A program made the position numbers and the translations under genes. The notes under the pieces were generated by a model that had not been told where the DNA came from, made no database searches, and was given only the letters and a program-made list of their open reading frames with translations. From assembly GCF_026151205.1 (NCBI RefSeq), contig NC_087073.1, forward strand, positions 10,982,411 to 11,046,410: DNA of 64,000 nucleotides, in the 5' to 3' direction. Of the stretch, positions 1,210-57,562 are shown in pieces. The number at the start of each line of letters is the position of its first letter. Position 1 is the first letter of the stretch. This DNA is from Bolinopsis microptera. Lineage: Eukaryota; Ctenophora; Tentaculata; Lobata; Bolinopsidae.

Positions 1210-4200
1210 GTGACTGGGTAATGTATACACTACTTGTTGCAGTGTTAGCAATACTTCTGGGTAATGTATACACTACTTGTTGCAGTGTTAGCACTACTTC
1301 TGGGTAATGTATACACTACTTGTTGCAGTGTTAGCATTACTTCTGGGTAATGTATACACTACTTGTTGCAGTGTTAGCATTACTTCTGGGTAATGTATAC
1401 ACTACTTGTTGCAGTGTTAGCATTACTTCTGGGTAATGTATACACTACTTGTTGCAGTGTTAGCACTACTTCTGGGTAATGTATACACTACTTGTTGCAG
1501 TGTTAGCATTACTTCTGGGTAATGTATACACTACTTGTTGCAGTGTTAGCATTACTTCTGGGTAATGTATACACTACTTGTTGCAGTGTTAGCATTACTT
1601 CTGGGTAAGTAATGTATACACTACTTGTTGCAGTGTTAGCATTACTTCTGGGTAATGTATACACTACTTGTTGCAGTGTTAGCATTACTTCTGGGTAATG
1701 TATACACTACTTGTTGCAGTGTTAGCACTACTTCTGGGTAATGTATACACTACTTGTTGCAGTGTTAGCATTACTTCTGGGTAATGTATACACTACTTGT
1801 TGCAGTGTTAGCATTACTTCTGGGTAATGTATACACTACTTGTTGCAGTGTTAGCATTACTTCTGGGTAATGTATACACTACTTGTTGCAGTGTTAGCAC
1901 TACTTCTGGGTAATGTATACACTACTTGTTGCAGTGTTAGCACTACTTCTGGGTAATGTATACACTACTTGTTGCAGTGTTAGCACTACTTCTGGGTAAT
2001 GTATACACTACTTGTTGCAGTGTTAGCACTACTTCTGGGTAATGTATACACTACTTGTTGCAGTGTTAGCACTACTTCTGGGTAATGTATACACTACTTG
2101 TTGCAGTATTAGCATTACTTCTAGGTAATGTATACACTACTTGTTGCAGTGTTAGCATTACTTCTAGGTAATGTATACACTACTTGTTGCAGTGTTAGCA
2201 TTACTTCTGGGTAATGTATACACTACTTGTTGCAGTGTTAGCATTACTTCTGGGTAATGTATACACTACTTGTTGCAGTGTTAGCATTACTTCTGGGTAA
2301 TGTATACACTACTTGTTGCAGTGTAAGCACTACTTCTGGGTAATGTATACACTACTTGTTGCAGTGTTAGCATTACTTCTGGGTAATGTATACACTACTT
2401 GTTGCAGTGTTAGCATTACTTCTGGGTAATGTATACACTACTTGTTGCAGTGTTAGCACTACTTCTGGGTAATGTATACACTACTTGTTGTAGTGTTAGC
2501 ATTACTTGTTGCAGTGTTAGCATTACTTCTGGGTAATGTATACACTACTTGTTGCAGTGTTAGCACTACTTCTGGGTAATGTATACACTACTTGTTGCAG
2601 TGTTAGCATTACTTCTGGGTAATGTATACACTACTTGTTGCAGTGTTAGCATTACTTCTGGGTAATGTATACACTACTTGTTGCAGTGTTAGCATTACTT
2701 CTGGGTAATGTATACACTACTTGTTGCAGTGTTAGCATTACTTCTGGGTAATGTATACACTACTTGTTGCAGTGTTAGCATTACTTCTGGGTAATGTATA
2801 CACTACTTGTTGCAGTGTTAGCACTACTTCTGGGTAATGTATACACTACTTGTTGCAGTGTTAGCACTACTTCTGGGTAATGTATACACTACTTGTTGCA
2901 GTGTTAGCATTACTTCTGGGTAATGTATACACTACTTGTTGCAGTGTTAGCATTACTTCTGGGTAATGTATACACTACTTGTTGCAGTGTTAGCACTACT
3001 TCTGGGTAATGTATACACTACTTGTTGCAGTGTTAGCATTACTTCTGGGTAATGTATACACTACTTGTTGCAGTGTTAGCACTACTTCTGGGTAATGTAT
3101 ACACTACTTGTTGCAGTGTTAGCACTACTTCTGGGTAATGTATACACTACTTGTTGCAGTGTTAGCATTACTTCTGGGTAATGTATACACTACTTGTTGC
3201 AGTGTTAGCATTACTTCTGGGTAATGTATACACTACTTGTTGCAGTGTTAGCACTACTTCTGGGTAATGTATACACTACTTGTTGCAGTGTTAGCATTAC
3301 TTCTGGGTAATGTATACACTACTTGTTGCAGTGTTAGCACTACTTCTGGGTAATGTATACACTACTTGTTGCAGTGTTAGCATTACTTCTGGGTAATGTA
3401 TACACTACTTGTTGCAGTGTTAGCATTACTTCTGGGTAATGTATACACTACTTGTTGCAGTGTTAGCATTACTTCTGGGTAATGTATACACTACTTGTTG
3501 CAGTGTTAGCATTACTTCTGGGTAATGTATACACTACTTGTTGCAGTGTTAGCATTACTTCTGGGTAATGTATACACTACTTGTTGCAGTGTTAGCATTA
3601 CTTCTGGGTAATGTATACACTACTTGTTGCAGTGTTAGCATTACTTCTGGGTAATGTATACACTACTTGTTGCAGTGTTAGCATTACTTCTGGGTAATGT
3701 ATACACTACTTGTTGCAGTGTTAGCACTACTTCTGGGTAATGTATACACTACTTGTTGCAGTGTTAGCATTACTTCTGGGTAATGTATACACTACTTGTT
3801 GCAGTGTTAGCATTACTTCTGGGTAATGTATACACTACTTGTTGCAGTGTTAGCATTACTTCTGGGTAATGTATACACTACTTGTTGCAGTGTTAGCACT
3901 ACTTCTGGGTAATGTATACACTACTTGTTGCAGTGTTAGCACTACTTCTGGGTAATGTATACACTACTTGTTGCAGTGTTAGCATTACTTCTGGGTAATG
4001 TATACACTACTTGTTGCAGTGTTAGCATTACTTCTGGGTAATGTATACACTACTTGTTGCAGTGTTAGCATTACTTCTGGGTAATGTATACACTACTTGT
4101 TGCAGTGTTAGCATTACTTCTGGGTAATGTATACACTACTTGTTGCAGTGTTAGCATTACTTCTGGGTAATGTATACACTACTTGTTGCAGTGTTAGCAT

Positions 4201-6122
4201 TACTTCTGGGTAATGTATACACTACTTGTTGCAGTGTTAGCACTACTTCTGGGTAATGTATACACTACTTGTTGCAGTGTTAGCATTACTTCTGGGTAAT
4301 GTATACACTACTTGTTGCAGTGTTAGCATTACTTCTGGGTAATGTATACACTACTTGTTGCAGTGTTAGCACTACTTCTGGGTAATGTATACACTACTTG
4401 TTGTAGTGTTAGCATTACTTGTTGCAGTGTTAGCATTACTTCTGGGTAATGTATACACTACTTTTTGCAGTGTTAGCACTACTTCTGGGTAATGTATACA
4501 CTACTTGTTGCAGTGTTAACATTACTTCTGGGTAATGTATACACTACTTAATGCAGTGTTAGCATTACTTCTGGGTAATGTATACACTACTTGTTGCAGT
4601 GTTAGCATTACTTCTGGGTAATGTATACACTACTTGTTGCAGTGTTAGCATTACTTCTGGGTAATGTATACACTACTTGTTGCAGTGTTAGCATTACTTC
4701 TGGGTAATGTATACATTATTTGTTGCAGTGTTAGCACTACTTCTGGGTAATGTATACACTACTTGGTGCAGGGTTAGCACTACTTCTGGGTAATGTATAC
4801 ACTACTTGTTGCTGTGTTAGCATTACTTCTGGGTAATGTATACACTACTTGTTGCAGTGTTAGCATTACTTCTGGGTAATGTATACACTACTTTTTGCAG
4901 TGTTAGCACTACTTCTGGGTAATGTATACACTACTTGTTGCAGTTTTAACATTACTTCTGGGTAATGTATACACTACTTGTTGCAGTGTTAGCACTACTT
5001 CTGGGTAATGTATACACCACTTGTTGCAGTGTTAGCACTACTTCTGGGTAATGTATACACTACTTGTTGCAGTGTTAGCATTACTTCTGGGTAATGTATA
5101 CACTACTTGTTGCAGTGTTAGCATTACTTCTGGGTAATGTATACACTACTTGTTGCAGTGTTAGCACTACTTCTGGGTAATGTATACACTACTTGTTGCA
5201 GTGTTAGCATTACTTCTGGGTAATGTATACACTACTTGTAGCAGTGTTAGCACTACTTCTGGGTAATGTATACACTACTTGTTGTAGTGTTAGCATTACT
5301 TCTGGGTAATGTATACACTACTTGTTGCAGTGTTAGCATTACTTCTGGGTAATGTATACACTACTTGTTGCAGTGTTAGCATTACTTCTGGGTAATGTAT
5401 ACACTACTTGTTGCAGTGTTAGCATTACTTTTGGGTAATGTATACACTACTTGTTGCAGTGTTAGCATTACTTTTGGGTAATGTATACACTACTTGTTGC
5501 AGTGTTAGCATTACTTCTGGGTAATGTATACACTACTTGTTGCAGTGTTAGCATTACTTCTGGGTAATGTATACACTACTTGTTGCAGTGTTAGCATTAC
5601 TTCTGGGTAATGTATACACTACTTGTTGCAGTGTTAGCACTACTTCTGGGTAATGTATACACTACTTGTTGCAGTGTTAACATTACTTCTGGGTAATGTA
5701 TACACTACTTGTTGCAGTGTTAGCATTACTTCTGGGTAATGTATACACTACTTGTTGCAGTGTTAGCATTACTTCTGGGTAATGTATACACTACGTGTTG
5801 CAGTGTTAGCACTACTTCTGGGTAATGTATACACTACTTGTTGCAGTGTTAGCACTACTTCTGGGTAATGTATACACTACTTGTTGCAGTGTTAGCATTA
5901 CTTCTGGGTAATGTATACACTACTTGTTGCAGTGTTAGCATTACTTCTGGGTAATGTATACACTACTTGTTGCAGTGTTAGCATTACTTCTGGGTAATGT
6001 ATACACTACTTGTTGCAGTGTTAGCATTACTTCTGGGTAATGTATACACTACTTGTTGCAGTGTTAGCATTACTTCTGGGTAATGTATACACTACTTGTT
6101 GCAGTGTTAGCATTACTTCTGG
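1210..6122 (+). repeat. 43-bp minisatellite array, about 114 copies
   Basis: A nearly homogeneous tandem array with a 43-bp period. Each unit reads GGGTAATGTATACACTACTT, then GTTGCAGTGTTAGC, then (A/C)TTACTTCT. The main polymorphism is ATTACTT versus ACTACTT. Odd units: a 4-bp insertion that creates GTAAGTAATG near 1,603, and an identical truncated extra unit (about 21 bp, with TTGTAGTG) near 2,491 and near 4,404, which points to a larger internal duplication. Between 4,450 and 5,280 units are more diverged. On the + strand every unit has an acceptor-like TTGTTGCAG and a donor-like GG|GTAATG, with 25 nt from GTAATG to TTGCAG and 18 nt in the remaining part. 43 is not a multiple of 3 and the frame closes after a few units, so it is not coding. 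Confidence 0.97.
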
Positions 6123-8602: not shown

Positions 8603-8729
8603 CTAAACCTTTTGTTTTTTGTTTTTCTTCGCGATCGGCTGAATATTCTCCTTCTCAGAAAGAGCAGGTTTTGTGGAGGAATGTTGAGTGTGTCGTGTAA
8701 CAGCTGATACTCCGTCAACAAACTTCGTC
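8603..8729 (-). CDS. SMC2: SMC2 terminal exon
   Basis: Acceptor CTATCAG|G completes the Arg codon; then [17 protein letters not shown] and a basic tail ending KKNKKQKV followed by TAG (8,603-8,605). TKFVDGVS is the conserved SMC2 end of the head domain. The basic tail is typical of family C-termini, though poorly conserved in sequence. Confidence 0.92.
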
Positions 8730-11700
8730 CTGATAGGATGAGGGTCTTATTATAACCAATCAGAGCACAGTACTCACACCACGTGACACAAACCAACCAA
8801 TCAGAGCACAGTACTCACACCACGTGACACAAACTAACCAATCAGAGCACAGTACTCACACCACGTGACACAAAGTAACCAATCAGAGCACAGTACTCAC
8901 ACCACGTGACACAAACTAACCAATCAGAGCACAGTACTCACACCACGTGACACAAAGTAACCAATCAGAGCACAGTACTCACACCACGTGACACAAAGTA
9001 ACCAATCAGATCACAGTACTCACACCACGTGACACAAACTAACCAATCAGAGCACAGTACTCACACCACGTGACACAAACTAACCAATCAGAGCACAGTA
9101 CTCACACCACGTGACACAAAGTAACCAATCAGAGCACAGTATTCACACCACGTGACACAAACTAACCAATCAGAGCACAGTACTCACACCACGTGACACA
9201 AACTAACCAATCAGAGCATAGTATTAACACCACGTGACATAAACTAACCAATCAGAGCACAGTACTCACACCACGTGACACAAACTAACCAATCAGAGCA
9301 CAGTACTCACACCACGTGACACAAAGTAACCAATCAGAGCACAGTATTCACACCACGTGACACAAAGTAACCAATCAGAGCACAGTACTCACACCATGTG
9401 ACACAAACCAACCAATCAGAGCACAGTATTCACACCACGTGACATAAACTAACCAATCAGAGCCCAGTACTCACACCACGTGACACAAACTAACCAATCA
9501 GAGCACAGTATTCACAAAAAAATATTCAATTAACCTGAAGAGAACGTTAGCATTCTGGAACATGCCATCTTTGAGGGAGACCACGACGAATTGAGAATGT
9601 TTGAAGTGAGCCCTCAACATCTGTCCGATGTTCTGAGTGTGGGACAAGTCTAGCGCTGCGTCCACCTGGAGAGAAACACGTGTCAGTATTCCCTAACAGA
9701 TACGTTTTAGTATTTCCTAACAGAAACGTTTTAGTATTCCCTAACAGAAACGTTTTAGTATTCTCCTAACAGAACATTTCAGTATTCCCTAACAGAAACT
9801 TTTTAGTATTTCCTAACAGAAACATTTTAGCATTTCCTAACAGAAACGTTTTAGTATTCTCTAACAGAAACGTTTTAGTATTCCCTAACAAAAACGTTTT
9901 AGTATTCCCTAACATAAACGTTTTAGTATTTCCTAACAGAGGAGGATAATTAGTATAATTAGTATAATTAGTATAATTAGTATAATTACCTCGTCCAGAA
10001 TGTATAGAGGAGCGGGTTTGAAGAGAAGAAGAGATAAGATAAGAGAGAGAGCCACTAAAGATCTCTGCCCCCCGCTCAGTTCTGTTAATGACTCTTTCCA
10101 TACCTCACCAAACCCAACCTGCAATTATAAACTTTAAAGTAGACCAAGACAAAGCTACTTGTCTATGTTACTGAAGGAAGTTGGGACAAACTCTAAAGAG
10201 GAACTGCGAACCCTGATGCGGGACAGGGATATATTGAGGGGGGTTTCTGGCGTAGATCGGACTAAGCTCCGACATAGTAGTAGTAAAGTAAGGTAGTATA
10301 GGTTTACAAAGTAAGATATGTTTAGTGACAGGTCTCCCCTCCAAAGATATAAACATTAGCACTTACCTTGACTTCTAAACCATCAGTAACAGGTCTCCCC
10401 TCCAAAGATATAAACATTAGCACTTACCTTGACTTCTAAACCATCAGTAACAGGTCTCCCCTCTAAAGATATAAATATTAGCACTTACCTTGACTTCTAA
10501 ACCATCAGTAACAGGTCCCCCCTCCAAAGATATAAACATTAGCACTTACCTTGACTTCTAAACCATCAGTAACAGGTCTCCCCTCCAAAGATATAAACAT
10601 TAGCACTTACCTTGACTTCTAAACCATCAGTAACAAGTTTCCCCTCCAAAGATATAAACATTAGCACTTACCTTGACTTCTAAACCATCAGTAACAGGTC
10701 TCCCCTCCAAAGATATAAACATTAGCACTTACCTTGACTTCTAAACCATCAGTAACAGGACTCCCCTCCAAAGATATAAACATTAGCACTTACCTTGACT
10801 TCTAAACCATCAGTAACAGGTCCCCCCTCCAAAGGTATAAACATTAGCACTTACCTTGACTTCTGAACCATCAGTAACAGGTCTCCCCTCCAAACATATA
10901 AACATTAGCACTTACCTTGACTTCTAAACCATCAGTAACAGGTCTCCCCTCCAAAGATATAAACATTAGCACTTACCTTGACTTCTAAACCATCAGTAAC
11001 AGGTCTCCCCTCCAAAGATATAAACATTAGCACTTACCTTGACTTCTAAACCATCAGTAACAGGTCTCCCCTCCAAAGATATAAACATTAGCACTTACCT
11101 TGACTTCTAAACCATCAGTAACAGGTCTCCCCGCCAAAGATATAAACATTAGCACTTACCTTGACTTCTAAACCATCAGTAACAGGTCTCCCCTCCAAAG
11201 ATATAAACATTAGCACTTACCTTGACTTCTAAACCATCAGTAACAGGACTCCCCTCCAAAGATATAAACATTAGCACTTACCTTGACTTCTAAACCATCA
11301 GTAACAGGTCTCCCCTCCAAAGATATAAACATTAGCACTTACCTTGACTTCTAAACCATCAGTAACAGGTCTCCCCTCCAAAGATATAAACATTAGCACT
11401 TACCTTGACTTCTAAACCATCAGTAACAGGTCTCCCCTCTAAAGATATAAACATTAGCACTTACCTTGACTTCTAAACCATCAGTAACAGGTCCCCCCTA
11501 CAAAGATATAAACATTAGCACTTACCTTGACTTCTAAACCATCAGTAACAGGACTCCCCTCCAAAGATATAAACATTAGCACTTACCTTGACTTCTAAAC
11601 CATCAGTAACAGGTCTCCCCTCCAAAGATATAAACATTAGCACTTACCTTGACTTCTAAACCATCAGTAACAGGTCTCCCCTCCAAAGATATAAACATTA

Positions 11701-14700
11701 GCACTTACCTTGACTTCTAAACCATCAGTAACAGGTCTCCCCTCCAAAGATATAAACATTAGCACTTACCTTGACTTCTAAACCATCAGTAACAGGTCTC
11801 CCCTCCAAACATATAAACATTAGCACTTACCTTGACTTCTAAACCATCAGTAACAGGTCTCCCCTCCAAAGATATAAACATTAGCACTTACCTTGACTTC
11901 TAAACCATCAGTAACAGGTCTCCCCTCCAAAGATATAAACATTAGCACTTACCTTGACTTCTAAACCATCAGTAACAGGTCTCCCCTCCAAAGATATAAA
12001 CATTAGCACTTACCTTGACTTCTAAACCATCAGTAACAGGTCTCCCCGCCAAAGATATAAACATTAGCACTTACCTTGACTTCTAAACCATCAGTAACAG
12101 GTCTCCCCTCCAAAGATATAAACATTAGCACTTACCTTGACTTCTAAACCATCAGTAACAGGACTCCCCTCCAAAGATATAAACATTAGCACTTACCTTG
12201 ACTTCTAAACCATCAGTAACAGGTCTCCCCTCCAAAGATATAAACATTAGCACTTACCTTGACTTCTAAACCATCAGTAACAGGTCTCCCCTCCAAAGAT
12301 ATAAACATTAGCACTTACCTTGACTTCTAAACCATCAGTAACAGGTCTCCCCTCTAAAGATATAAACATTAGCACTTACCTTGACTTCTAAACCATCAGT
12401 AACAGGTCCCCCCTACAAAGATATAAACATTAGCACTTACCTTGACTTCTAAACCATCAGTAACAGGACTCCCCTCCAAAGATATAAACATTAGCACTTA
12501 CCTTGACTTCTAAACCATCAGTAACAGGTCTCCCCTCCAAAGATATAAACATTAGCACTTACCTTGACTTCTAAACCATCAGTAACAGGTCTCCCCTCCA
12601 AAGATATAAACATTAGCACTTACCTTGACTTCTAAACCATCAGTAACAGGTCTCCCCTCCAAAGATATAAACATTAGCACTTACCTTGACTTCTAAACCA
12701 TCAGTAACAGGTCTCCCCTCCAAAGATATAAACATTAGCACTTACCTTGACTTCTAAACCATCAGTAACAGGTCTCCCCTCCAAAGATATAAACATTAGC
12801 ACTTACCTTGACTTCTAAACCATCAGTAACAGGTCTCCCCTCCAAAGATATAAACATTAGCACTTACCTTGACTTCTAAACCATCAGTAACAGGTCTCCC
12901 CTCCAAAGATATAAACATTAGCACTTACCTTGACTTCTAAACCATCAGTAACAGGTCTCCCCTCCAAAGATATAAACATTAGCACTTACCTTGACTTCTA
13001 AACCATCAGTAACAGGTCTCCCCTCCAAAGATATAAACATTAGCACTTACCTTGACTTCTAAACCATCAGTAACAGGTCTCCCCTCCAAAGATATAAACA
13101 TTAGCACTTACCTTGACTTCTAAACCATCAGTAACAGGTCTCCCCTCCAAATATATAAACATTAGCACTTACCTTGACTTCTAAACCATTAGTAACAGGT
13201 CTCCCCTCCAAAGATATAAACATTAGCACTTACCTTGACTTCTAAACCATCAGTAACAGGTCCCCCCTCCAAAGATATAAACATTAGCACTTACCTTGAC
13301 TTCTAAACCATCAGTAACAGGTCTCCCCTCCAAAGATATAAACATTAGCACTTACCTTGACTTCTAGACCATCAGTAACAGGTCTCCCCTCCAAAGATAT
13401 AAACATTAGCACTTACCTTGACTTCTAAACCATCAGTAACAGGTCTCCCCTCCAAAGATATAAACATTAGCACTTACCTTGACTTCTAAACCATCAGTAA
13501 CAGGTCTCCCCTCCAAAGATATAAACATTAGCACTTACCTTGACTTCTAAACCATCAGTAACAGGTCTCCCCTCCAAAGATATAAACATTAGCACTTACC
13601 TTGACTTCTAAACCATCAGTAACAGGTCTCCCCTCCAAAGATATAAACATTAGCACTTACCTTGACTTCTAAACCATCAGTAACAGGTCTCCCCTCCAAA
13701 GATATAAACATTAGCACTTACCTTGACTTCTAAACCATCAGTAACAGGTCTCCCCTCCAAAGATATAAACATTAGCACTTACCTTGACTTCTAAACCATC
13801 AGTAACAGGTCTCCCCTCCAAAGATATAAACATTAGCACTTACCTTGACTTCTAAACCATCAGTAACAGGTCTCCCCTCCAAAGATATAAACATTAGCAC
13901 TTACCTTGACTTCTAAACCATCAGTAACAGGTCTCCCCTCCAAAGATATAAACATTAGCACTTACCTTGACTTCTAAACCATCAGTAACAGGTCTCCCCT
14001 CCAAAGATATAAACATTAGCACTTACCTTGACTTCTAAACCATCAGTAACAGGTCTCCCCTCCAAAGATATAAACATTAGCACTTACCTTGACTTCTAAA
14101 CCATCAGTAACAGGTCTCCCCTCCAAAGATATAAACATTAGCACTTACCTTGACTTCTAAACCATCAGTAACAGGTCTCCCCTCCAAAGATATAAACATT
14201 AGCACTTACCTTGACTTCTAAACCATCAGTAACAGGTCTCCCCTCCAAAGATATAAACATTAGCACTTACCTTGACTTCTAAACCATCAGTAACAGGTCC
14301 CCCCTCCAAAGATATTAACATTAGCACTTACCTTGACTTCTAAACCATCAGTAACAGGTCTCCCCTCCAAAGATATAAACATTAGCACTCACCTTGACTT
14401 CTTAACCATCAGTAACAGGTCTCCCCTCCAAAGATATAAACATTAGCACTTACCTTGACTTCTAAACCATCAGTAACAGGTCTCCCCTCCAAAGATATAA
14501 ACATTAGCACTTACCTTGACTTCTAAACCATCAGTAACAGGTCTCCCCTCCAAAGATATAAACATTAGCACTTACCTTGACTTCTAAACCATCAGTAACA
14601 GGTCTCCCCTCCAAAGATATAAACATTAGCACTCACCTTGACTTCTTAACCATCAGTAACAGGTCTCCCCTCCAAAGATATAAACATTAGCACTTACCTT

Positions 14701-16768
14701 GACTTCTAAACCATCAGTAACAGGTCTCCCCTCCAAAGATATAAACATTAGCACTTACCTTGACTTCTAAACCATCAGTAACAGGTCTCCCCTCCAAAGA
14801 TATAAACATTAGCACTTACCTTGACTTCTAAACCATCAGTAACAGGTCTCCCCTCCAAAGATATAAACATTAGCACTTACCTTGACTTCTAAACCATCAG
14901 TAACAGGTCTCCCCTCCAAAGATATAAACATTAGCACTTACCTTGACTTCTTAACCATCAGTAACAGGTCTCCCCTCCAAAGATATAAACATTAGCACTT
15001 ACCTTGACTTCTAAACCATCAGTAACAGGTCTCCCCTCCAAAGATATAAACATTAGCACTTACCTTGACTTCTAAACCATCAGTAACAGGTCTCCCCTCC
15101 AAAGATATAAACATTAGCACTTACCTTGACTTCTAAACCATCAGTAACAGGTCTCCCCTCCAAAGATATAAACATTAGCACTTACCTTGACTTCTAAACC
15201 ATCAGTAACAGGTCTCCCCTCCAAAGATATAAACATTAGCACTTACCTTGACTTCTAAACCATCAGTAACAGGTCTCCCATCCAAAGATATAAACATTAG
15301 CACTTACCTTGACTTCTAAACCATCAGTAACAGGTCTCCCCTCCAAAGATATAAACATTAGCACTTACCTTGACTTCTAAACCATCAGTAACAGGTCTCC
15401 CCTCCAAAGATATAAACATTAGCACTTACCTTGACTTCTAGACCATCAGTAACAGGTCTCCCCTCCAAAGTCTGCAGTTTAACCCTCGCTCCAGGAAGCA
15501 GCGTAGAGAATATAGAGCCGAAATCCTTGTTCACCTGCTCCCAGGCTCTCCTGACTGCTCTGTTCTTCTTCTCGTCCAGCTCCTTGATCACCTTGTTTAT
15601 CTTGTGCTTGTCGTTAGTCACAATGTCCTTCCTTTTCACCAGGTCGATGTACCGTTTCTCCGCTTCTCCTAGCAGGTGCATTGCTCTCATGTTCACATTC
15701 TTGGACAGTTTATCTTTACTTGCCTTCAGACGCTCCAACTTCTTATCACTTTCTTTCAGGTCCTGTTTCTCAAAGTCGTAGGCAGTGTCCCTCTGTCCGA
15801 AGTACTGCTTCTCAGAAGCAATCCACTCATAGTTGTTGAGGTAATACTGGACCTGCTGCTTTGCTTCGCTCGCTTCCTTGTTCAGTTTACTCAGCTTGTG
15901 AGTCAGCTCCTTCAGCTTTATCCCGCAGCTACTTATCAGCTTCTCCGCTGCTTTCTGCTCCTTCACAAAGTTCTCTATCTCAGCAGAACACTGTTGTATC
16001 AGTTCACGCTGAGCCCCAAGTTCAGCAGCCAGTGTCTCCCTCACCGCCGCGCACTCAGTTAGCTTTAACTGGGCTCCCTCCACAAGCTCCTGAGCAGCAG
16101 CTATAGCCTCCTCGCATTTAGGCAGCTGCTCTCGCAGACCCTCCACTCCTTAGCTAGTTCACTGCTCACCTCCAACTCTAGTTCTTTCAACTTGTTCACC
16201 TTTGCTTTCGCCTCCTTCGAACACTTGTTTAATTTACTCTTTGCGTCTAATATCCTCCTCTCCGACTTCTTCAGTTCTTTCTCTTGTTCAGATTTGAAGT
16301 TCTTCATCTTAGCTTCCACTTCCGCGCACTTCTTTAAGAGACTCTTTTCTTTGTCGTTAAAATTATCTACAATTTCCTTTTGCTTTGCAAGGTCCTCCTT
16401 AGTCCTCCTCAACTCCTCTATGTCTTTGTAGTGAGAGGTCTGCTTCAATCTTTCTTCTAATAAATCACGCTCGTGCTTCTTCAACCTCAGCTGTCCTGTC
16501 AGTTCCTCCCACTGGTGAACAACTCTTTCCATTTTACTCAACTCTCCCTCTACCTGTCTGTACTGCTCTTTGTACTAAGTGAGATCAGATCTGGACTGTT
16601 TGCAGGCAGAGAGTTCTTTAAGAACACATCTAGAAGTGTTCCTGGACCCTCCCGTTAGAGTACCTGCCGGATCGTATACATCTCCCTCCAGAGTAATAAC
16701 CTTCCTCTTCACTGACTTGTCGAATGCTACTTTCTTAGCTTGCTCCTTAGTTTTACAGATGAGAACTC
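8603..16768 (-). CDS. SMC2: SMC2, condensin ATPase subunit: C-terminal half only, coding frame disrupted
   Basis: SMC2 is one of the two ATPase arms of condensin, which compacts mitotic chromosomes in the nucleus. Visible, from N to C on the minus strand: the end of the hinge ([21 protein letters not shown]), the returning coiled coil, [26 protein letters not shown], the ABC signature [19 protein letters not shown], Walker [21 protein letters not shown], and the tail [12 protein letters not shown]. Four exons join in frame by GT-AG introns: 16,768-15,430, 10,118-9,990, 9,665-9,535 and 8,729-8,603. The largest exon has an in-frame TAG (16,575-16,577) and a frame change near 16,150 that looks like one missing base. 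It begins at a GGA microsatellite that replaces upstream hinge sequence. The head N-terminus (Walker A) is absent from the other 46 kb. This is therefore a truncated pseudogene or a damaged assembly of a real gene; the splice sites and 3' exons look functional. Identity is near certain; integrity is doubtful. Confidence 0.93.
8752..9520. repeat. 41-bp array filling the last SMC2 intron (about 19 copies)
   Basis: Nineteen units of 41 bp, each with CCAATCAG (CCAAT box), AGCACAGTACTCACAC and CACGTGACACAAA (E-box CACGTG). They occupy almost all of the 805-bp intron between 9,534 and 8,730, starting ~22 bp from the acceptor and ending ~17 bp from the donor. On the SMC2 sense strand each unit contains GTGAGTAC, a donor-like hexamer in every copy. 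Related single copies lie at about 7,880 and 17,852. Confidence 0.95.
9535..9665 (-). CDS. SMC2: SMC2 exon: D-loop, switch region and end of the head
   Basis: A 131-nt exon reading [43 protein letters not shown] and the first two bases of an Arg codon. The DAALD (D-loop) and the FVVVSLK strand with its switch-type residue are intact. The acceptor is TTTCTCTCCAG|GTGGAC with a strong upstream branch-point match, TACTGAC. The donor is CTTCAG|GTTAAT (phase 2). Confidence 0.95.
9680..9945 (-). repeat. 24-bp array next to an SMC2 acceptor (about 10-11 copies)
   Basis: Imperfect 24-bp units, which on the SMC2 sense strand read AATACTAAAACGTTTCTGTT then AGGG. Each holds a branch-point-like TACTAAAA followed by a pyrimidine-rich TTTCTGTTAG. 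The genuine acceptor directly downstream reads GAATACTGACACGTG then TTTCTCTCCAG and aligns with the unit with a 2-nt gap, so the array looks like duplicates of that 3' splice-site region. Confidence 0.88.
9946..9989 (-). repeat. 10-bp array starting at an SMC2 donor
   Basis: Four to five copies of ATTATACTAA begin directly at the donor GAG|GTAATTATACTAATT. Together with the 24-bp array they make up nearly the entire 324-bp intron (9,666-9,989). Confidence 0.85.
9990..10118 (-). CDS. SMC2: SMC2 exon: ABC signature motif and Walker B
   Basis: A 129-nt exon (43 codons) reading [13 protein letters not shown], then [30 protein letters not shown]. It holds the ABC signature (LSGGQ) and most of Walker B. 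The acceptor is TTGCAG|GTTGGG and the donor GACGAG|GTAATT; both sides are phase 0. The frame joins EVK (previous exon) to VDAALD (next exon), as in other SMC2 proteins. No lesion is seen. Confidence 0.95.
10119..10329 (-). other. Unique part of the large SMC2 intron (acceptor side)
   Basis: About 210 bp of non-repetitive intron between the TTGCAG acceptor at 10,119 and the 61-bp array. No other feature seen. Open frames here are shadows. Confidence 0.6.
10330..15472 (-). repeat. 61-bp array made from an SMC2 exon/intron boundary, about 84 copies
   Basis: Each 61-bp unit, on the SMC2 sense strand, holds 40 nt of exon (TTTGGAGGGGAGACCTGTTA ... GAAGTCAAG, encoding [13 protein letters not shown]) followed by the donor GTAAGTGC and 21 nt of intron (to TTTATATC). 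The unit nearest the exon body is the genuine exon end (15,430); the others lie downstream as the 5.3-kb intron. Variants (TCCCC, GGACTCC, CTCTAAAG, CCTACAAAG, AAACATAT, CCCCGCC) recur with a 915-bp (15-unit) spacing between about 10.9 and 12.7 kb, a higher-order duplication. 61 is not a multiple of 3: reading into the second unit meets a TGA within 20 codons. Confidence 0.97.
15430..16768 (-). CDS. SMC2: SMC2 exon: hinge end, C-terminal coiled coil and D-loop-side head start
   Basis: Read from 16,768 down. The first readable residues [18 protein letters not shown] match the end of the SMC2 hinge; [18 protein letters not shown] follows. At 16,575-16,577 a TAG interrupts the frame (SRSDLT[14 protein letters not shown]), with SMC2-like sequence continuing in the same frame after it. 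A Lys/Glu-rich coiled coil runs to [11 protein letters not shown]. Near 16,150 the homology moves to another frame ([17 protein letters not shown]), consistent with a single missing base. The rest, through [16 protein letters not shown]-like sequence (the usual W-I-x-x-E-x-x-x-F-G block) and [10 protein letters not shown], is clean. It ends EVKVG across the junction, at donor AAG|GTAAGT (15,429-15,428), phase 0. Confidence 0.92.
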
Positions 16769-17545
16769 CTCCTCCTCCTCCTCCTCCTCCTCCCCCTCCT
16801 CCTCCTCCTCCTCCTCCTCCTCCTCCTCCTCCTCCTCCTCCTCCTCCTCCTCCCCTCCTCCTCCTCCTCCTCCTCCTCCTCCTCCTCCTCCTCCTCCTCC
16901 TCCTCCTCCTCCTCCTCCTCCTCCTCCTCCTCCTCCTCTCCTCCTCCTCCTCCTCCTCCTCCTCCTCCTCCTCCTCCTCCTCCTCCTCCTCCTCCTCCTC
17001 CTCCTCCTCCTCCTCCTCCTCCTCCTCCTCCTCTCCTCCTCCTCCTCCTCCTCCTCCTCCTCCTCCTCCTCCTCCTCCTCCTCCGTCCTCCTCCTCCTCC
17101 TCCTCCTCCTCCTCCTCCTCCTCCTCCTCCTCCTCCTCCTCCTCCTCCTCCTCCTCCTCCTCCTCCTCCTCCTCCTCCTCCTCCTCCTCCTCCTCCTCCT
17201 CCTCCTCCTCCTCCTCCTCCTCCTCCTCCTCCTCCTCCTCCTCCTCCTCCTCCTCCTCCTCCTCCTCCTCCTCCTCCTCCTCCTCCTCCTCCTCCTCCTC
17301 CTCCTCCTCCTCCTCCTCCTCCTCCTCCTCCTCCTCCTCCTCCTCCTCCTCCTCCTCCTCCTCCTCCTCCTCCTCCTCCTCCTCCTCCTCCTCCTCCTCC
17401 CTCCTCCTCCTCCTCCTCCTCCTCCTCCTCCTCCTCCTCCTCCTCCTCCTCCTCCTCCTCCTCCTCCTCCTCCTCCTCCTCCTCCTCCTCCTCCTCCTCC
17501 TCCTCCTCCTCCTCCTCCTCCTCCTCCTCCTCCTCCTCCTCCTCC
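16769..17545. repeat. (CTC/GGA)n microsatellite, about 775 bp
   Basis: An almost pure CTC repeat on the + strand (GAG/GGA on the minus strand) with a few interruptions (CCCCC, CTCTCC twice, CCGTCC, TCCCTCC) that shift phase. All three minus-strand frames stay open as poly-Glu, poly-Arg or poly-Gly, which yields long spurious open frames. It abuts the SMC2 hinge coding sequence at GVLIC. A purine/pyrimidine mirror tract of this length can form triplex (H-) DNA. Confidence 0.98.
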
Positions 17546-17900
17546 TTTTGGTGCCGTCACAAGTTTCCCACTGCATTTTGTTACTATTTTATTTTGAGTA
17601 ATTAGATCGTGATAGTGTCTTGGTAGCTAAATCTAATTTGCACCGTAATTATAAATTTTTACAAAATAATATCCGAAAACTTTGTCGGTTCATTAGATCA
17701 TTGATCTCGAGCAAAATAAATCCAATTACACATATTATAAAGCAGATCAAGGTCGCCGCAATTTATCGAAGACCGGAATTTTTCAAACAACTCTACAACT
17801 CAAAAGCTGTCAACTTTCGTCTGAAGACGAAATTGTCACGCGTATTATATTAACCAATCAGAGCACAGTATTCACACCACGCGTATTAAATTAACCTAAG
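17546..17900. other. Non-coding spacer with one dispersed 41-bp monomer
   Basis: AT-rich sequence without a recognised gene. At 17,852-17,882 there is one copy of the CCAATCAGAGCACAGTATTC unit that forms the array in the last SMC2 intron, here ending in CACGCG rather than CACGTG. No N-terminal SMC2 exon is visible. Confidence 0.5.
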
Positions 17901-47730: not shown

Positions 47731-50700
47731 TTAAAGTCCTGCGTCCATGACTACTGAATCACCAAAAATACTGTTCGCACATACAGGATAGGCTTGATGA
47801 AATAGATGGGTCTTGAGAGCCTTCTTGAAAACATCTAGTCGAGAGATGGAGCGTAGTGAGTAGGGAAGTGTATTCCAGATTTTAGGAGCAGTGTGAGAGA
47901 AAGCACCAGCTGTAGCCCTCAGCCTTGATAAAGGAGGGCGTTCCAGTAGGAAGAAGTCATGGTCCATTCTGACATGATGTTTACTAGTGTCCCTAATTTT
48001 GACCATTGTCCTTAGATATTCAGGAGCACAATCGTTTAGGCACTTGAAAACCAGTAACGCTATCTTGAATTTGATTCGCATTGCTACAGGTAAGAAGTGT
48101 AATTCAATCATATAGGGTGTGATGGGCTCCTGTCTCAACTTCCCATGAAGTCCGAATATGAATCTCACAGCAGTATTCTGCACTTTTTGAAGTTTCTGGA
48201 GAAGTCGTTCAGAAAGGGCACCATAAGTAGCATTTCCATTGTCCAGAATGGAATGAATTGAAGCATGTACCATTTGGATTTTGAGCTCCTTACTCAGTTT
48301 GGAACCTATTCTGCCAAGATTTCGCTGATTTACATAGCAAACTCTGACAACGTTGTTGATCTGTGCCTCTAAATTGAGATGGTTGTCAAAAATGAATCCC
48401 AGATTCTTTGCTGACTTGGTAGGTTTAATGGAGCATATGCTGTCAAGATTGAATTCAACTTGTTTTGGAGCTTTGGAGTTTGTAGAGATCTCGATTATCT
48501 CACTTTTATTGTCGTTGAGTTTCAGGTAGTTCTCACTCATCCATGATTTGATGTGCTCGAAACATTCTTTCAATTTGCTCTTCATAGATTCAATGTCCAT
48601 GTCTTTCTTAGGATCAAATGAGAAGTATATCTGAGTATCATCAGCATATAGATGGATTTGGAGACCATGCATACTTGCAATATCTTGTAGCTGTTTAGTG
48701 TAAAGGATGAAAAATATAGGACCAAGAATTGAGCCCTGAGGAACTCCAATCTCGAGGTCACAGAGAGAGGAATATTCACCCTTAACACCAACGATAAAGG
48801 ATCGATTTGACAGGTAGCTTGCAACCCATTGAAGAATAATACCACTAAATCCATAGCTATATTCGAGTCGTCTCAAAAGTCTTTTGTGATTGATGGTATC
48901 AAATGCAGCTGACAAGTCAAGAAGAAGAAGAACAGTATGACTCTTCTTGTCAACTTGGAGGAGTATATCATTATGTACCTTGAGCACTGCAGTTTCACAG
49001 CTCATGTTTTTCCGGTAACCTGATTGATTTGCTGCGAAAAGATTGTTCTTATTTAGGTACTCGGAAAACTGTGAGTGGGCACACTTTTCTATAACCTTGG
49101 AAATAAAACTGAGGTTACTCACAGGTCTATAGCTTTTCAAGTCGTCTGCATCTAGAGAGGCTTTCTTTAGGACTGGTCGTACTATAGCAGACTTCAGAGC
49201 ATGTGGAAAATAGCCCTCTTGGAGGGATAGGTTAACTATGAGGGTGATATGAGGGAGCAATTCATCGAGACAGTGCTTGAGGAGCCATGTTGGAAGAGGA
49301 TCGAGTTCACACGACTTATTATTCATCGTCTTAGTAATCAGGGAAAGAACCTCTGATCGAGTAACTAATCTGAAAGCTGTAGCAGAGCATGGTAGAGAAC
49401 TATGTGTATCATTAGGCATCTCTAACTCTTTTACACAAGGTTTGTCGTCAGATTGACTATCAGCACTGGACAGGCTTTCCTCTGAGATAGACCCATAAAT
49501 CTTCTTTACTTTATCGTCAAAGTAGTTTTTGAGACTTTCTGCAACTGCTTGATGCGTGGGCCCAGAAGGGGACTTCTGAGAAAGATCTTTATCCAGAAGG
49601 TTATTTATAATTCTGTATGTAGCTTTTGGATCTCCTTTAGCATCTGTAAGTCGTTTCTCATAATAGCGATTCCGTTCTCTAGAGATGATTAAGGTAGTAT
49701 CTACACAAGCTTCCCTATAGATTTCTCTATAATCTTGAGCATCAGCCATACTTTTATGCTTCTTCCAGAGTCTTTCAGCAGCTCTGCGCTTTTTACGGGC
49801 ATCATTGCAGTTTTCATTCCACCAGTCACTACGACCAGGTATAAAATAGATGTTCTTAGCTGGTGCATGCTTATTAAGAACTGAGGATATAACAGAATCG
49901 TATTTGTCGACTGCGTCATCTAAACTAGTTAGCTGGGATGGAGATGGCATGTGGAGTACAATGTCAGCTTTGAAAGCATCAATATCAATTTTGCTAAACT
50001 CACGAACTGTTTTTTGTTCCTTACTTGGCTGCTTTGATGACACATCAATCTCGGGTGCACTAAACTTAACCAGGAAGTGATCTGACGTTGTGCCCGTGTC
50101 TTCCACAATTTCAAGCTCTGTGATGTTTAAGTTGTCAGCCGGTGATTCCAATGTTAGCACTAGGTCCAGTGTGCCGCCAGAGATGTGTGTTGGTGAGGAA
50201 ACATGCTGCTTCAAGCCTTTTGAATGACAGAGTGCCATGAATTGTATAGCCCAATAGTCTGGATCCTCTACATGAAAGTTGAAATCCCCTGCTAATATAG
50301 GAATACCAGATTTAGTTATCAAGGTATCCATGTAATCAGAAAACTGTTCAAGAAACAATTTCTTTCGGGTTTCTTGATATTTCTTATGAGAAGAAACTTG
50401 AGTTGATCGATAAAGGACACAAAATCTGATCAAGTGAGATTTTGCTCTGAAGACAGTTTCCAAAACCTCAAAGGAACTAAACTTCACACTGTTTCTTGTC
50501 AGAGAGACAACCTTTGGGTCATAGATGAAGGCAACACCGCCACCTCTCCCACGTCTTGGAGCACTAATAATATCATATTTGTGGTCTTTCACCTCAGCGA
50601 TTTTGGCCTTATCATCAACTCTCAGCCAAGTCTCTGTCAGGAAGCATATATCCACGTTCTCTTCTCTCAGTAGCTCTAGTACAGATACCGTTTTGTTGCA

Positions 50701-50775
50701 AATGGATCTTGCATTAAAGGTTGCCATTTTCAGAGCATGGATATGGGGTGGACTGTGATGGTGTCCTGGTGTCAC
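47731..50775 (-). CDS. LINE ORF2: AP-like endonuclease and reverse transcriptase
   Basis: An open frame of 1,014 codons whose first ATG is residue 17 (MATFNARSICNK). Exonuclease-endonuclease-phosphatase domain ~17-240: N21, E48 (FLTETWLR), D164-x-N166 (LAGDFNFH), D204 (GGTLDLVLT), D232-H233 (TTSDHFLV). Reverse transcriptase ~480-760: LDPLPTWLLKHCL, PVLKKASLDADDLKSYRPVS, LLLLDLSAAFDTINHKRLL (first Asp), GVPQGSILGPIFF, HLYADDTQIYFSF (Y-A-D-D, ~710-713). The C-terminus is AVRFIFGLHGK, HFLPVAMRIKFKIALLVFKC, WNTLPYSLRSI. It nicks target DNA and copies the element RNA from the 3' end. Translation probably follows ORF1 by reinitiation, since ORF1 stops within the open upstream part. All catalytic residues are present. 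Confidence 0.92.
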   Translation of the reverse strand: MTPGHHHSPPHIHALKMATFNARSICNKTVSVLELLREENVDICFLTETWLRVDDKAKIAEVKDHKYDIISAPRRGRGGGVAFIYDPKVVSLTRNSVKFSSFEVLETVFRAKSHLIRFCVLYRSTQVSSHKKYQETRKKLFLEQFSDYMDTLITKSGIPILAGDFNFHVEDPDYWAIQFMALCHSKGLKQHVSSPTHISGGTLDLVLTLESPADNLNITELEIVEDTGTTSDHFLVKFSAPEIDVSSKQPSKEQKTVREFSKIDIDAFKADIVLHMPSPSQLTSLDDAVDKYDSVISSVLNKHAPAKNIYFIPGRSDWWNENCNDARKKRRAAERLWKKHKSMADAQDYREIYREACVDTTLIISRERNRYYEKRLTDAKGDPKATYRIINNLLDKDLSQKSPSGPTHQAVAESLKNYFDDKVKKIYGSISEESLSSADSQSDDKPCVKELEMPNDTHSSLPCSATAFRLVTRSEVLSLITKTMNNKSCELDPLPTWLLKHCLDELLPHITLIVNLSLQEGYFPHALKSAIVRPVLKKASLDADDLKSYRPVSNLSFISKVIEKCAHSQFSEYLNKNNLFAANQSGYRKNMSCETAVLKVHNDILLQVDKKSHTVLLLLDLSAAFDTINHKRLLRRLEYSYGFSGIILQWVASYLSNRSFIVGVKGEYSSLCDLEIGVPQGSILGPIFFILYTKQLQDIASMHGLQIHLYADDTQIYFSFDPKKDMDIESMKSKLKECFEHIKSWMSENYLKLNDNKSEIIEISTNSKAPKQVEFNLDSICSIKPTKSAKNLGFIFDNHLNLEAQINNVVRVCYVNQRNLGRIGSKLSKELKIQMVHASIHSILDNGNATYGALSERLLQKLQKVQNTAVRFIFGLHGKLRQEPITPYMIELHFLPVAMRIKFKIALLVFKCLNDCAPEYLRTMVKIRDTSKHHVRMDHDFFLLERPPLSRLRATAGAFSHTAPKIWNTLPYSLRSISRLDVFKKALKTHLFHQAYPVCANSIFGDSVVMDAGL

Positions 50776-51863
50776 ATCATGTTTTTTGAGTCATATTCTG
50801 TATTCATCATTAGCCTCTGCATCTCTCTGGCAATGATTGGACACTCCATTGATGCTGCATTATGGGACTTGTGCTGTGCTTTATCACTGGGATTCTTCGA
50901 GTTTTTGCACCTGGCACAGCACTTTGCTTCACTTTTGGACTTGTTACTGCAATCTTTAGACAGGTGGTTTCCTGAGCAGCGGAAGCAAGTTGGATCATCA
51001 ACCTTGGTAGGACAGTTTGTAGAAGTGTGACCAATTCCTTGACAATGGTAACAAGAAACAACATGAACTCGATCGGACACAGGATGGCAGGTATTTCCAA
51101 AATAAAGAGCTCTTCCTTGGTCATTCATGATGCAAGATCGGATAGCAGGAGAGACTTTAAGTGCAAATGTGAAATACTTGCTATTTTCAGTAAAACGTGA
51201 CATGTACACAACCTCCAATTTGTGACCAGCATCCACAAGCTTGCGTACTCCGTCATTTTTGGCCAAGATGGACGGTTTCAGTAGCGATCTGCACTTATCT
51301 CTTAGTTTATCATCATCGTCTGCTGTAAGTCTGCGGAAGGCATCGTCCCTATGGACGTTCTCTATTGTTAACTTTGGATACATCTTCTTTGCTTCACGCA
51401 AAGTATATCCCTTTGAAGAATCTTCATCAATCAACTGAGTAGCATTTTGCCTTGCCTCTGAATCAGGAAAACCAATAGCGATAGAGTTATTGGATTTGTT
51501 AACCTTTACAAAGTCCGTTTGTACTGATGACAATTTCTCACATACATTATTGCAAACGGACTCAGCGGACTCAGATGTGACATCTTCAGGGGGAGATAAT
51601 ATAAGCACTGAACTCTTGGACTGGATCCTAGGACGAGGTGCCAATTGCTGCATCTGTGGAGGACTGCCCATGGTAGATGCCTGGAATACCTCCTGCTGTC
51701 TTTCCTGCGACTTGTTAGTAAATAGATCGGACATAAGGAATTTTTGAGAGTTAGAACTTTGGGGCCCTGATGGACCAAGCTTAGCATCAATAGCATCATG
51801 AACACTTTTAAGGATATCAACTTTGAAATCTTTCATTTCACTTCTGAACTGATCACTGTCCAT
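50772..51863 (-). CDS. LINE ORF1: nucleic-acid-binding protein with CCHC knuckles
   Basis: 363 codons. ORF1 proteins coat the element RNA and chaperone its integration. Two CCHC-type zinc knuckles: C271-x2-C274-x4-H279-x4-C284 and C293-x2-C296-x3-H300-x4-C305, followed by a Cys-rich CCARCKN ... MEC segment. The middle (about 85-250: SSVLILSPPEDVTSE, AIGFPDSEARQNATQ) looks like the RRM-like fold common in CR1-group ORF1s. It ends NMM-TGA, overlapping the open frame of ORF2 by a few bases. The chosen ATG is the first; the frame stays open upstream to the insertion boundary. Confidence 0.85.
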   Translation of the reverse strand: MDSDQFRSEMKDFKVDILKSVHDAIDAKLGPSGPQSSNSQKFLMSDLFTNKSQERQQEVFQASTMGSPPQMQQLAPRPRIQSKSSVLILSPPEDVTSESAESVCNNVCEKLSSVQTDFVKVNKSNNSIAIGFPDSEARQNATQLIDEDSSKGYTLREAKKMYPKLTIENVHRDDAFRRLTADDDDKLRDKCRSLLKPSILAKNDGVRKLVDAGHKLEVVYMSRFTENSKYFTFALKVSPAIRSCIMNDQGRALYFGNTCHPVSDRVHVVSCYHCQGIGHTSTNCPTKVDDPTCFRCSGNHLSKDCSNKSKSEAKCCARCKNSKNPSDKAQHKSHNAASMECPIIAREMQRLMMNTEYDSKNMM

Positions 51864-54437: not shown

Positions 54438-57400
54438 CTAGTTATCTACATTTAGACTTTCTTTGAAGTTGAGGGTTAGTCTGTAGATTTTATTAATGGT
54501 GCTGGTCGAGAGTTTGATCAAACTTACGTCCTCATCGCTGAGTTTGTCCATGCAATCGGGTTGCGAGATAAACGTGGAGGCAAGATTGAAGCTACCATTT
54601 CCGTCAATGCTGACTAGATTTCCACTGAGGCTTTGAAATCTGTCCCTTGGAACTTTCCCTAGGGGGCAGGAATGGAGCATATGGTTCTCGTCTTCGATGA
54701 TTAGCTGGTTGATGTTCAGCTCGCAATAGTTACAGGTCCTTTCATCAAGTGGAGTTTTGTCGTACCTCCCCCTTTCAATTCTAAGGTGATGAGAACTGGA
54801 CCGAATCTGTGTGGTTGCCCTTCTGTCCTGGAAAGACCTAGCGTGGTTTAGATATGGCTCCCATCCAAATTCTTTTTTGACTTCACTGTAGAATGATAGC
54901 TTTCTAGAATCTTTCACAAGAGAACCCCAGGAATCACGGAATAGTTTTCGCAGGTTCTCTGTCATCAATTCAGGGCTGCAGGAGTCCGCGAGGAAGGTTG
55001 CGCTGAGCAACGATGATGAATTCCTGTCAGGAAGGTCGATGTTGTTAAATGACTTGATAACTGATTCGATGCCTACAAACCATGACAATTTGAGGTTAAT
55101 CTGCTCAGTCATTGCAGCTTTGACCAGTTGTGTTGAGGGAAGGCTCATAACTCTTTTGAAGTATTTAGTACTCAGTTTCAACATCTCAATTATAATTGGG
55201 TATGAGCCAGTTTCTCCCCAGGCTGTAGCATTGACTGCCCTTCTGTTAATACCAAGAAGGTATTTGAGGTGACGTAGGTGCACTTGCTCCAGTTTCTGTT
55301 TTGCGATGTGGGAGACTGCATGATCAAGGTTGTGAAACTTGCTGAAGCAAGAGAGGACCTTACTGACGGTGGGTAGAACTGGGGCCCAAACTTGACAACC
55401 GTATAGTAGAATAGGCTTGACAAGGGTGTCAAATAGTTTGTTAAGGCATGATGCGTCAATGTATCTCCGGTCTATGGTGCTTCTCAAGCTAAAGTAAGCT
55501 CCGAGTCCCTTACGGTAGAGAGAGTCAGTTGCCTGCCGAAATTTCCCTGTGCTGCTTATAATGATTCCAAGATAGCAGTAGCTGGAGACCATCTCTATAT
55601 CTCTGTCATGAATAGAAGGACGCCAGTTTGGAATGTCAGGTCCTTTACCGTTGAAGACCATGAATTTGGTTTTGGAGATGTTGATTTCCAGACCCCATTC
55701 GATACAGTAGTCCCCAATGATCGAAAGCAACTTTTGGAGTGATTCAGGATCTAGGGCGAGGATTACTAGATCATCAGCCCACGCTAGGTGAGTCACTGAG
55801 ATACCAGCGAGAGTTGGGCAGTTCACAACGGCTTCATTGAGGAGGTCAGAAAGCTTTTTAAAGTAGACTTTGAAAAACTCGGGGCTGAGTGGATGTCCTT
55901 GTTCAGTCCCTTTGAGGATCTTGAATGCTTCACTGATTTTACCATTCATCTTGATATGACCCTCTGATTTACTGTACATGTCTTTGATGATGTCGTAGTA
56001 GCCGCCGTTGACGCCATAGCAGGCTAGTTTGAACAGGAGGGCTTGTCTGCACACTAGATCAAACGCTTTTCGGAGATCAATGAACACTGCATATATTTTA
56101 CTTTTCACTTTCTTGTATTTTTCGATTGTGGACATCAGCGTGAATATATGGTCATTACATTGACTTCCTTTGGTAAAGCCTGCTTGATTAGGTGGATCTG
56201 GATGAGAGATTTGGCGGTGAGTGACAAGCCGAGATAGCAGCATCGTGGAGAGCAGTTTCCCAATACAGCTACATACTGCTATTGCTCTATAGTTGTCAGG
56301 GTTCCTGATGCACCCTTTTTTGTGAATCGGTGTGATCACACTTTTGCTCCAGAGGTAGGTTCCTGTCTCAAGGCACAGATTGAAGAGTTTAAGGAGGAGG
56401 GACCTCATTTTCACGTTCAAACCCTTGAGCATTTCATTGCTTATGTGGTCAAAAGCAGATGCTTTGCCGGATTTTAGTTTGCCTAGTGCAGCGTTCAGCT
56501 CACCCAGTGTAAATGCGCTGTTCAGCGACTCATTGGGGGCAGATCCCTCGGCTAGGGTGTTGGCTTCTTCGAGGAGAGCTCTTTTGGTGAGAGAGTCTAC
56601 AGTTGGATGAGTGTCAGAGTAGAGCTCAGCGTAGAACTGATGGAAGGTTTTAAGTTGCTCTGAGTCAGTTTGGACTTCTTCCTTCTTGTAGCTCTTAAGC
56701 TTTTTGAAGTCTCTCCAGGATATGGTTTTACCGTTTTTAATCTTTTTGTTAAGACTATTGGAGAAGTCATCCCGTTTCTTATTGACAATCTTTCGATATC
56801 CTCTGCAGTTAGCACGGTGTCGAGCTTTGATCCTTTGATTGTCAGGGTTATTATCGACAATCTTTATTGACCGCTTGAAGAGGCGTCGTGCGGTGTGACA
56901 CTTGCCGTCAAACCATGAATCGAACTTGGGTTTTGGATTCTGGGTCTGTTTAGAGATTTCAAGCTCATTTTTAGCGGCATCATTTATAAGTTCTGTAATG
57001 TGCCTATTCAGTGCTTCGACTGCCTCATGGGTTTTTGGGGCGGATTCGGCATCTTTGGTTAGCTGGGAGATTCTTTGGATGAACTCAGGCTGTTCAAAGG
57101 AGTGTGTGAAGTTGACTAGACTGTCTTCTGTGATCCGGTAACGAAAAGGAGCTTCCTGATAATTGCTATTGGGAGCTCGACTATTCCTTTGAGGGGCTCC
57201 ATGCCAGAGACTGAGTAGAACAGGATTGTGGTCGGAGAACAGAGTATGCTCGCCCACTGAGAGGGACTTGACACGGTGAAGAAAGGATGTTGATGCAATG
57301 AAGTAGTCCACCACGCTGTTTCCGTTCCATTTGAAGCATGTGTATTTTCCGGCAGAGTCACCAATGGTATGTCCATTAAGGATCAAGAGGTTTTGCGATC

Positions 57401-57554: not shown

Positions 57555-57562
57555 ATGGTGTA
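54438..57562 (-). mobile_element. 5'-truncated non-LTR retrotransposon with a long intact RT frame
   Basis: The element is cut off inside the endonuclease domain and ends just after the stop at 54,438, with a pyrimidine-rich 3' part on the minus strand. Truncation at the 5' end is the usual outcome of incomplete target-primed reverse transcription. No target duplication could be recognised. It is a different lineage from the nested CR1-like element: the RT motifs and C-terminal Cys/His region differ. Confidence 0.85.

Follow-up and report, generated by a model that had tools for sequence, protein, structure and literature searches.

Minisatellite arrays at exon/intron boundaries and in candidate new introns of the SMC2 gene family

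The origin of new introns is a long-standing question for which there are few recent examples. The closest described relatives of the arrays reported here are the 'mirages' of amphioxus, tandem repeats lying over exon/intron boundaries, which are described for the Adh3, globin BflGb6 and BflGb9, and PGBD5 genes (PMC3087553, PMC3902484). The authors of the globin work proposed mirages as a source of introns (PMC3087553, PMC3902484). In the Rogers model an intron is gained by tandem duplication of an exon that contains AGGT, and a case was described in the potato RdRp gene (PMC4974935). The neointrons of Daphnia are attributed to the repair of staggered breaks, with direct repeats of 4-12 bp (PMC4202315). 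Introners are families resembling DNA transposons, some of which have target duplications of 3-9 bp and/or terminal inverted repeats (PMC9860276). In human segmental duplications, minisatellites modify genes, with 30-bp units repeated four times on average, half of them in coding exons (PMC2812944).

The window, i.e., the whole stretch of DNA that was analysed, comprises 64,000 nt, and the coordinates of the features are given as window positions in Table 1. The gene, read on the minus strand, was identified as SMC2 (top hit in the PDB: human SMC2 9f5w, E 2.4e-48). The initial annotation had described its three introns as made almost wholly of tandem repeats, and TRF recovered all four of the arrays lying within them. 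The scan of the window against Rfam gave no match at the gathering score.

Table 1. Features of the window copy of SMC2 (copy A), in the order of the gene, with array borders according to TRF.
Feature	Window position	Strand	Source or remark
(GGA)n array, gene sense GGA (CTC on the plus strand)	16766..17546	-	TRF
In-frame TAG; copies B, C, D and G have CAG	16575..16577	-	
Long SMC2 exon, 3' part (exon 5 of the composite gene), decayed by TAG and a 1-nt frameshift	15430..16768	-	last exon base 15430
61-bp array, x84 (84.4 units); the coding exon supplies the exon part of the first unit (15430-15470)	10324..15470	-	TRF
Intron 1, 5311 nt in this copy; probably ~106 nt before expansion	10119..15429	-	
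SMC2 exon between introns 1 and 2	9990..10118	-	
Intron 2, 324 nt	9666..9989	-	
9-bp array, x4.8 (TAATTATAC), starting at intron 2 base 2	9946..9988	-	TRF
24-bp array, x11, resembling the intron 2 3' end (branch point-like ATACTAA + TTTCTGTTAG)	9678..9940	-	TRF
SMC2 exon between introns 2 and 3	9535..9665	-	
Intron 3, 805 nt	8730..9534	-	
41-bp array, x18.6, of a repeat dispersed over the genome; no splice-site origin	8753..9516	-	TRF
Last SMC2 exon (TKFVDG..KKQKV stop)	8603..8729	-	

The window copy has lost its 5' exons, and 780 bp of (GGA)n stand in place of the upstream part of the long exon, which moreover carries the in-frame TAG and, at ~16145, the frameshift. Recoding of the TAG was dropped as an explanation because other copies carry CAG at that codon. 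Likewise, the possibility that the window copy is the functional gene was ruled out by the TAG, the frameshift and the lost 5' exons, together with the presence of a complete gene on contig C13. To judge from its sequence, this copy is a relic and belongs to a set of six partial copies. A (GGA)n tract also replaces the upstream exon part in copy D (L017, ~640 bp); in both copies it is joined to a common foreign upstream sequence, while the exon is cut at different places. Downstream of SMC2, the window contains a 43-bp x114 array (1214-6122), which was also found beside copies B, E and G. Two minus-strand open frames of more than 1000 aa (47731-50790 and 54438-57569) look like non-LTR reverse transcriptases.

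The genome (264.65 Mb, 232 contigs) was searched with the 61-bp unit and with the protein, and stretches of 10 kb around the matches were examined. SMC2 was found at seven places, two on contig C2, four on C9 and one on C13; the remaining matches of the protein search were weak (33-52% identity, on C8 and C11). Among prokaryote contigs, the search for relatives found none. The complete gene, copy C, occupies C13:10776535-10798361 and consists of 10 exons with a coding sequence of 3603 nt (1200 aa) free of stops, all introns being of the GT-AG type. Among the SMC2 copies, exons 1-3 were found on C13 only. The Pfam search found the SMC_N and SMC hinge domains in a composite protein that is near-identical to the C13 protein. 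The view that no SMC2 copy was whole, which came from an early composite ORF, was ruled out by the finding of exons 6-8 in copy C. Introns 1 to 9 of the C13 gene measure 1187, 707, 328, 256, 132, 134, 14343, 162 and 975 nt, respectively. Introns 3, 8 and 9 are largely a 21-bp array, the 9-bp array and the 41-bp array, respectively. The 61-bp array stands at the start of intron 7, with 27 donors AAGGTAAGT; two copies of the acceptor of this intron are present, both followed by the first 9 nt of the next exon.

The divergence of coding DNA among the six copies compared (C2, C9 and C13; L009-L028, L037) amounted to 1.2-3.2%, and dN/dS, including the values between partial copies, was 0.04-0.20 at a dS of 0.03-0.11 (copy E left out). 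Such low ratios would be unexpected for old pseudogenes and suggest recent truncation or conversion with working alleles. Copy E (L020-L021, C9:165-185k; L024 listed alongside) contains 1544 bases of poly-A, and its 61-bp repeats extend in degraded form over ~19 kb; copy F has a junk-like 5' end of low complexity. Both the poly-A with the degraded array of copy E and the 5' end of copy F are likely assembly errors.

The 61-bp unit (CTTTGG..GTCAAG|GTAAGTGCTAATGTTTATAT) comprises 41 bp of the exon end and 20 bp of the intron with its donor, and ends with TATAT. This composition, proposed in the initial annotation, was confirmed. Of the 68 units of the window array that were parsed with a strict pattern (TRF counts 84.4), 66 have the donor AAG|GTAAGT and two AAG|GTGAGT. 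The junction between the exon and the 61-bp array is common to the six copies in which exon 5 is legible and is therefore older than the copies; copy E has the unit, its exon 5 being illegible. The copy number is unstable between the paralogues, ranging from 15 to 84 units according to TRF (A 84, B 44, C 27, D 36, F 15 and G 26). The arrays also carry private unit variants, and blocks are repeated that comprise 15 units in A and 9 units in B, as established from variant maps covering the whole length in A, B and G and the first 12, 18 and 10 units only in C, D and F. The differing counts, the private variants and the block repeats therefore point to independent turnover between the copies.

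In copies B to G, the last unit is followed by un-amplified intron, which is complete to the acceptor in D, F and G and has there a length of ~106 nt (GTAAGTGCT..TATATCTTTATATAGG..TTGCAG). The break points of the unit share CTTT, the exon reading CAGA^CTTTGG and the intron TATAT^CTTTATATAGG (CTTTATA); thus, the first repeat would have arisen from a single short duplication between sites sharing 4 bp. At the acceptor of this intron, other copies have duplications with different break points, over 43 bp in B and C and 49 bp in E. Since minisatellites over exon/intron boundaries are known as amphioxus mirages, the 61-bp array is a mirage, and its kind is not new. The initial annotation knew of no described mechanism with such an outcome; mirages are the precedent (PMC3087553).

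The claims made for the other introns of the window fared less evenly. An array of 10 bp had been placed on the donor of intron 2; its position stands, with a start at the T of the donor GT, and its period was corrected to 9. At the other end of the same intron, the likeness reported between the 24-bp unit (CTGTTAGGGAATACTAAAACGTTT) and the true 3' end of the intron (GGGAATACTGACACGTGTTTCTCTCCAG) was found again, the array ending 12 nt before the acceptor. The 41-bp array of intron 3 had been said to contain GTGAGT in each unit. The motif is present in only 14 of 18 units, the donor of intron 3 is GTTAAT, and the array begins ~18 bp into the intron. Moreover, the 41-bp repeat has at least 258 matches in the genome, among those listed on C2, C4, C9, C10 and C13, and this dispersal rules out its derivation from the donor. 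Overall, the earlier observation on the SMC2 arrays stands in the main and is partly confirmed.

A second type of intron was found in the complete gene. Introns 5 and 6 on C13 consist of 21-bp repeats (GTAGTGTAACTATGGTAACTA), so that the intron body is a dispersed repeat and not an exon-derived duplicate, and the exon is duplicated at both ends of each, over 19 and 15 bp, respectively. Within the long exon, the sequence TCTAACTACACCCAG|GTA is doubled around the 21-bp minisatellite in copies C (intron 5) and G, and GTACGTCATGATA in copies C (intron 6), D and G. In copy B the exon is uninterrupted and open at both places; it matches the exon-5 reference perfectly by construction, because the reference was itself cut from this copy. 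A single gene family thus includes both an exon without these introns and an intact gene in which two minisatellite introns lie between exon duplications; the states before (copy B) and after (the C13 gene) an intron gain may therefore coexist in the genome. As opposed to never having had them, copy B could also have lost both adjacent introns through cDNA recombination.

If introns 5 and 6 are cut out at AG|GT, the exon is restored without any change; retention of either gives a stop in the C13 gene. The predicted open reading frame is intact only with both repeat introns removed, and these introns are presumably spliced out, as would be the 61-bp array from its first donor. Insertions of the 21-bp repeat occur also at other exon positions from which no precise GT-AG removal is possible, namely at site 3 (B and D) and site 4 (G); the complete gene has no insertions within exons other than the two exactly removable ones. 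The insertion patterns conflict among the copies, site 2 being occupied in C, D and G and site 3 in B and D. Gene conversion is therefore likely, and the polarity of the insertions proposed here is tentative.

Ten other loci (L030, L031, L033, L035, L036 and L046-L050) were brought in by the 21-bp repeat and may not be typical. In three of them (L036, L035 and L030), arrays of a different repeat touch a donor. L036 has a 46-bp x8 array, the unit of which combines 12 bp of the presumed exon end with 34 bp of intron including the donor; thus, units spanning an exon/intron boundary are present in both SMC2 (61 bp) and L036 (46 bp). The acceptor of L036 is duplicated as well, and the open frame just upstream of the junction matches Pfam L7Ae (1.2e-5); we take the gene to be SECISBP2-like. 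In L035, a kinesin exon (Pfam 1.1e-19, match to the last residue) is followed by a 13-bp array from the first intron base, and in L030 an exact 31-bp x2 duplication lies over the candidate donor of an unnamed exon. The Pfam search gave no match for the junction exons of L030 and L036; it also returned no name for the exon of L049, a result of little weight as the query started with a wrongly framed stretch.

Among the remaining loci, L033 has a candidate donor 8 nt upstream of the 21-bp array. In L049 (C12:4222754-4223597), the 21-bp array lies within a 22-bp duplication (one mismatch) of the acceptor-like CACATACAG, and an apparent donor further upstream is followed by a short AT-rich stretch of repeats. 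In L047 (C8:738633-739499), where no gene was recognised, a 64-bp array of the 21-bp repeat is flanked on both sides by a ~46-bp segment, 31 bp of which are identical.

The control sets were small. Arrays of at least 60 bp were found in none of the eight TCP1-chaperonin loci, which form six distinct stretches and total 31,455 bases including overlaps; two stretches are a single long open frame and hence have few introns. Of the two MCM control stretches, one, the MCM gene of L051 (C13:6787448-6790083), carries two small arrays with 15-bp and 9-bp units in a single intron, neither of which touches a junction. As donor arrays occur in L036, L035 and L030 and in none of the chaperonin and MCM controls, they are neither specific to SMC2 nor universal, and the three loci rule out SMC2 as a special gene.

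These arrangements are probably best explained by mirage-type duplications and by repeat-filled repair, the products of which were retained through a survival filter. For the duplication and the filler repair, as well as for the filter, we propose the following scheme. A short tandem duplication would arise across or beside an exon/intron boundary (units of 9-61 bp, with 0-4 bp shared at the legible break points). Because splicing could use the authentic exon-side donor, the extra copies would turn into intron and be neutral, and the arrays might then grow via unequal exchange or slippage of multi-unit blocks. DNA repair or duplication may also take filler from the dispersed 21-bp minisatellite and leave it between two copies of the target; a target with an AG|GT site would then become a spliceable new intron, as may have happened twice in the complete SMC2 gene. 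The tracking of splice sites would mostly reflect the survival filter: the duplications and the repeat-filled repair would take place widely, and within coding exons their products would be kept only if splicing removes them.

The initial annotation had suggested that duplication was repeatedly initiated, or tolerated, at the junctions, and this interpretation is partly supported: arrays do contain or touch junctions in independent cases, while the pattern does not by itself support preferred initiation at splice sites. Placed at random in SMC2 as it was before the array, a 61-bp segment would span a junction in 14% of cases, and selection would remove duplications inside the exons of a working gene; survival alone can thus explain the pattern. 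All exon insertions of the C13 gene are removable, and the non-removable ones are found in partial copies, which therefore favours the survival filter on the basis of few events. Three of about 12 founding events in SMC2 span a junction, too few to separate initiation from survival. In kinesin and in SMC2 intron 2, the arrays start at +0 or +1; a pure survival filter would not need them so near the junction, which leaves room for some initiation bias.

The reading in which splice junctions are themselves hot spots that start tandem duplication (e.g., through transcription-coupled structures or recurrent donor breaks), in line with the initial annotation, appears unlikely to us. It would account for the unrelated arrays at donors, namely the 61-bp and 9-bp arrays of SMC2, the 13-bp array exactly at +0 in kinesin, the 46-bp array of L036 and the 31-bp x2 duplication of L030 (candidate exon), as well as for the duplicated acceptors (B, C, E and L036; a candidate in L049). 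However, small introns force nearness to a junction, the ancestral intron 1 having probably measured ~106 nt, and the random expectation given above applies to the hot spots too. Repeat insertions also occur within the exons of partial copies and, in L047, without a recognised gene, and no junction array was seen in the eight TCP1 loci (six distinct stretches) or the two MCM stretches.

The distribution of the 21-bp repeat bears on the second part of the favoured explanation, the repeat-filled repair. This repeat has at least 111 matches, those listed lying on 13 contigs, 11 of which have matches at 90% identity or more. The flanks were compared at 20 distinct sites, with paralogues collapsed and with two arrays cut by the locus end, three matches of the 43-bp family, and L029, L032 and L034 (overlapping) left out. 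A shared flank word of at least 10 bp was present at 10 of the 20 sites (31, 25, 20, 20, 20, 15, 12, 12, 11 and 10 bp) and absent from the other 10; when flanks free of arrays were paired at random 3000 times, a word of 10 bp or more was shared in 27 pairs and the longest did not exceed 13 bp. Two or three of the shorter flank words could be decayed repeat units. Introns similar in sequence comprise the two in SMC2 and the repeat-bearing introns of other loci, within these 20 distinct sites only. We tentatively propose, at somewhat less than even confidence, that the 21-bp minisatellite actively makes spliceosomal introns: it would serve as a break filler between duplicated target ends, bring donor- and acceptor-like signals and give immediate introns at AG|GT in essential genes.

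The same distribution could be read as that of a mobile, introner-like element with target-site duplication, selected as spliceable, to which the mirages would be secondary. The wide spread over contigs, the flank duplications at half of the sites, the presence of GTAACT and TAACTAG in the unit and the two copies serving as whole introns in an intact gene are in agreement with such an element. We nevertheless hold it to be improbable, as the duplications range from 10 to ~46 bp, unlike the fixed target-site duplications of transposons and the short ones of introners, with less than 10 bp at the other half of the sites. In addition, neither terminal inverted repeats nor coding capacity were noticed in an unsystematic inspection, and in L035 the repeat is in antisense orientation to the kinesin gene. 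An assembly artefact, with arrays and copies arising from collapsed or mis-joined long reads, would fit the poly-A and the noisy 61-bp array of copy E and the 5' junk of copy F and is very improbable for the whole, given the identical exon/61-bp junction with private variants in the six legible copies, the exact unit boundaries common to arrays of differing length and the same design in unrelated genes.

If RNA confirms that the repeat introns are spliced, the models of intron gain by tandem duplication and by break repair could be tested directly in this genome by counting empty and filled sites. In the literature searched, no description of introns made of a dispersed minisatellite was found. 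The present arrays share with the amphioxus mirages the boundary-containing minisatellite units at donors and acceptors, the variable copy number and the overlapping unit lengths (10-72 bp in Adh3). They differ from them in reaching as many as 84 copies, in belonging to a set of gene copies with one complete member, and in the companion dispersed 21-bp repeat that makes whole introns, with one paralogue lacking them. The AGGT duplication model likewise places a new intron between two copies of an AG|GT exon segment, whereas the spacer here is the dispersed 21-bp minisatellite and not exon sequence. The Daphnia neointrons also have exon direct repeats at their flanks and repeats inside the new intron; here the direct repeats are longer (15-20 bp), and the filler comes from one repeat family. 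Introners resemble the present case in that several introns derive from one sequence family with target duplication in some cases, but the sequence here is a tandem repeat of variable length with longer and variable duplications. In human segmental duplications, exon-intron boundary minisatellites and novel introns were similarly found in recent gene duplicates, while the unit counts here are far higher and are accompanied by the dispersed repeat. The dispersed-repeat introns thus differ in part from each known system and are less well documented than the mirages.
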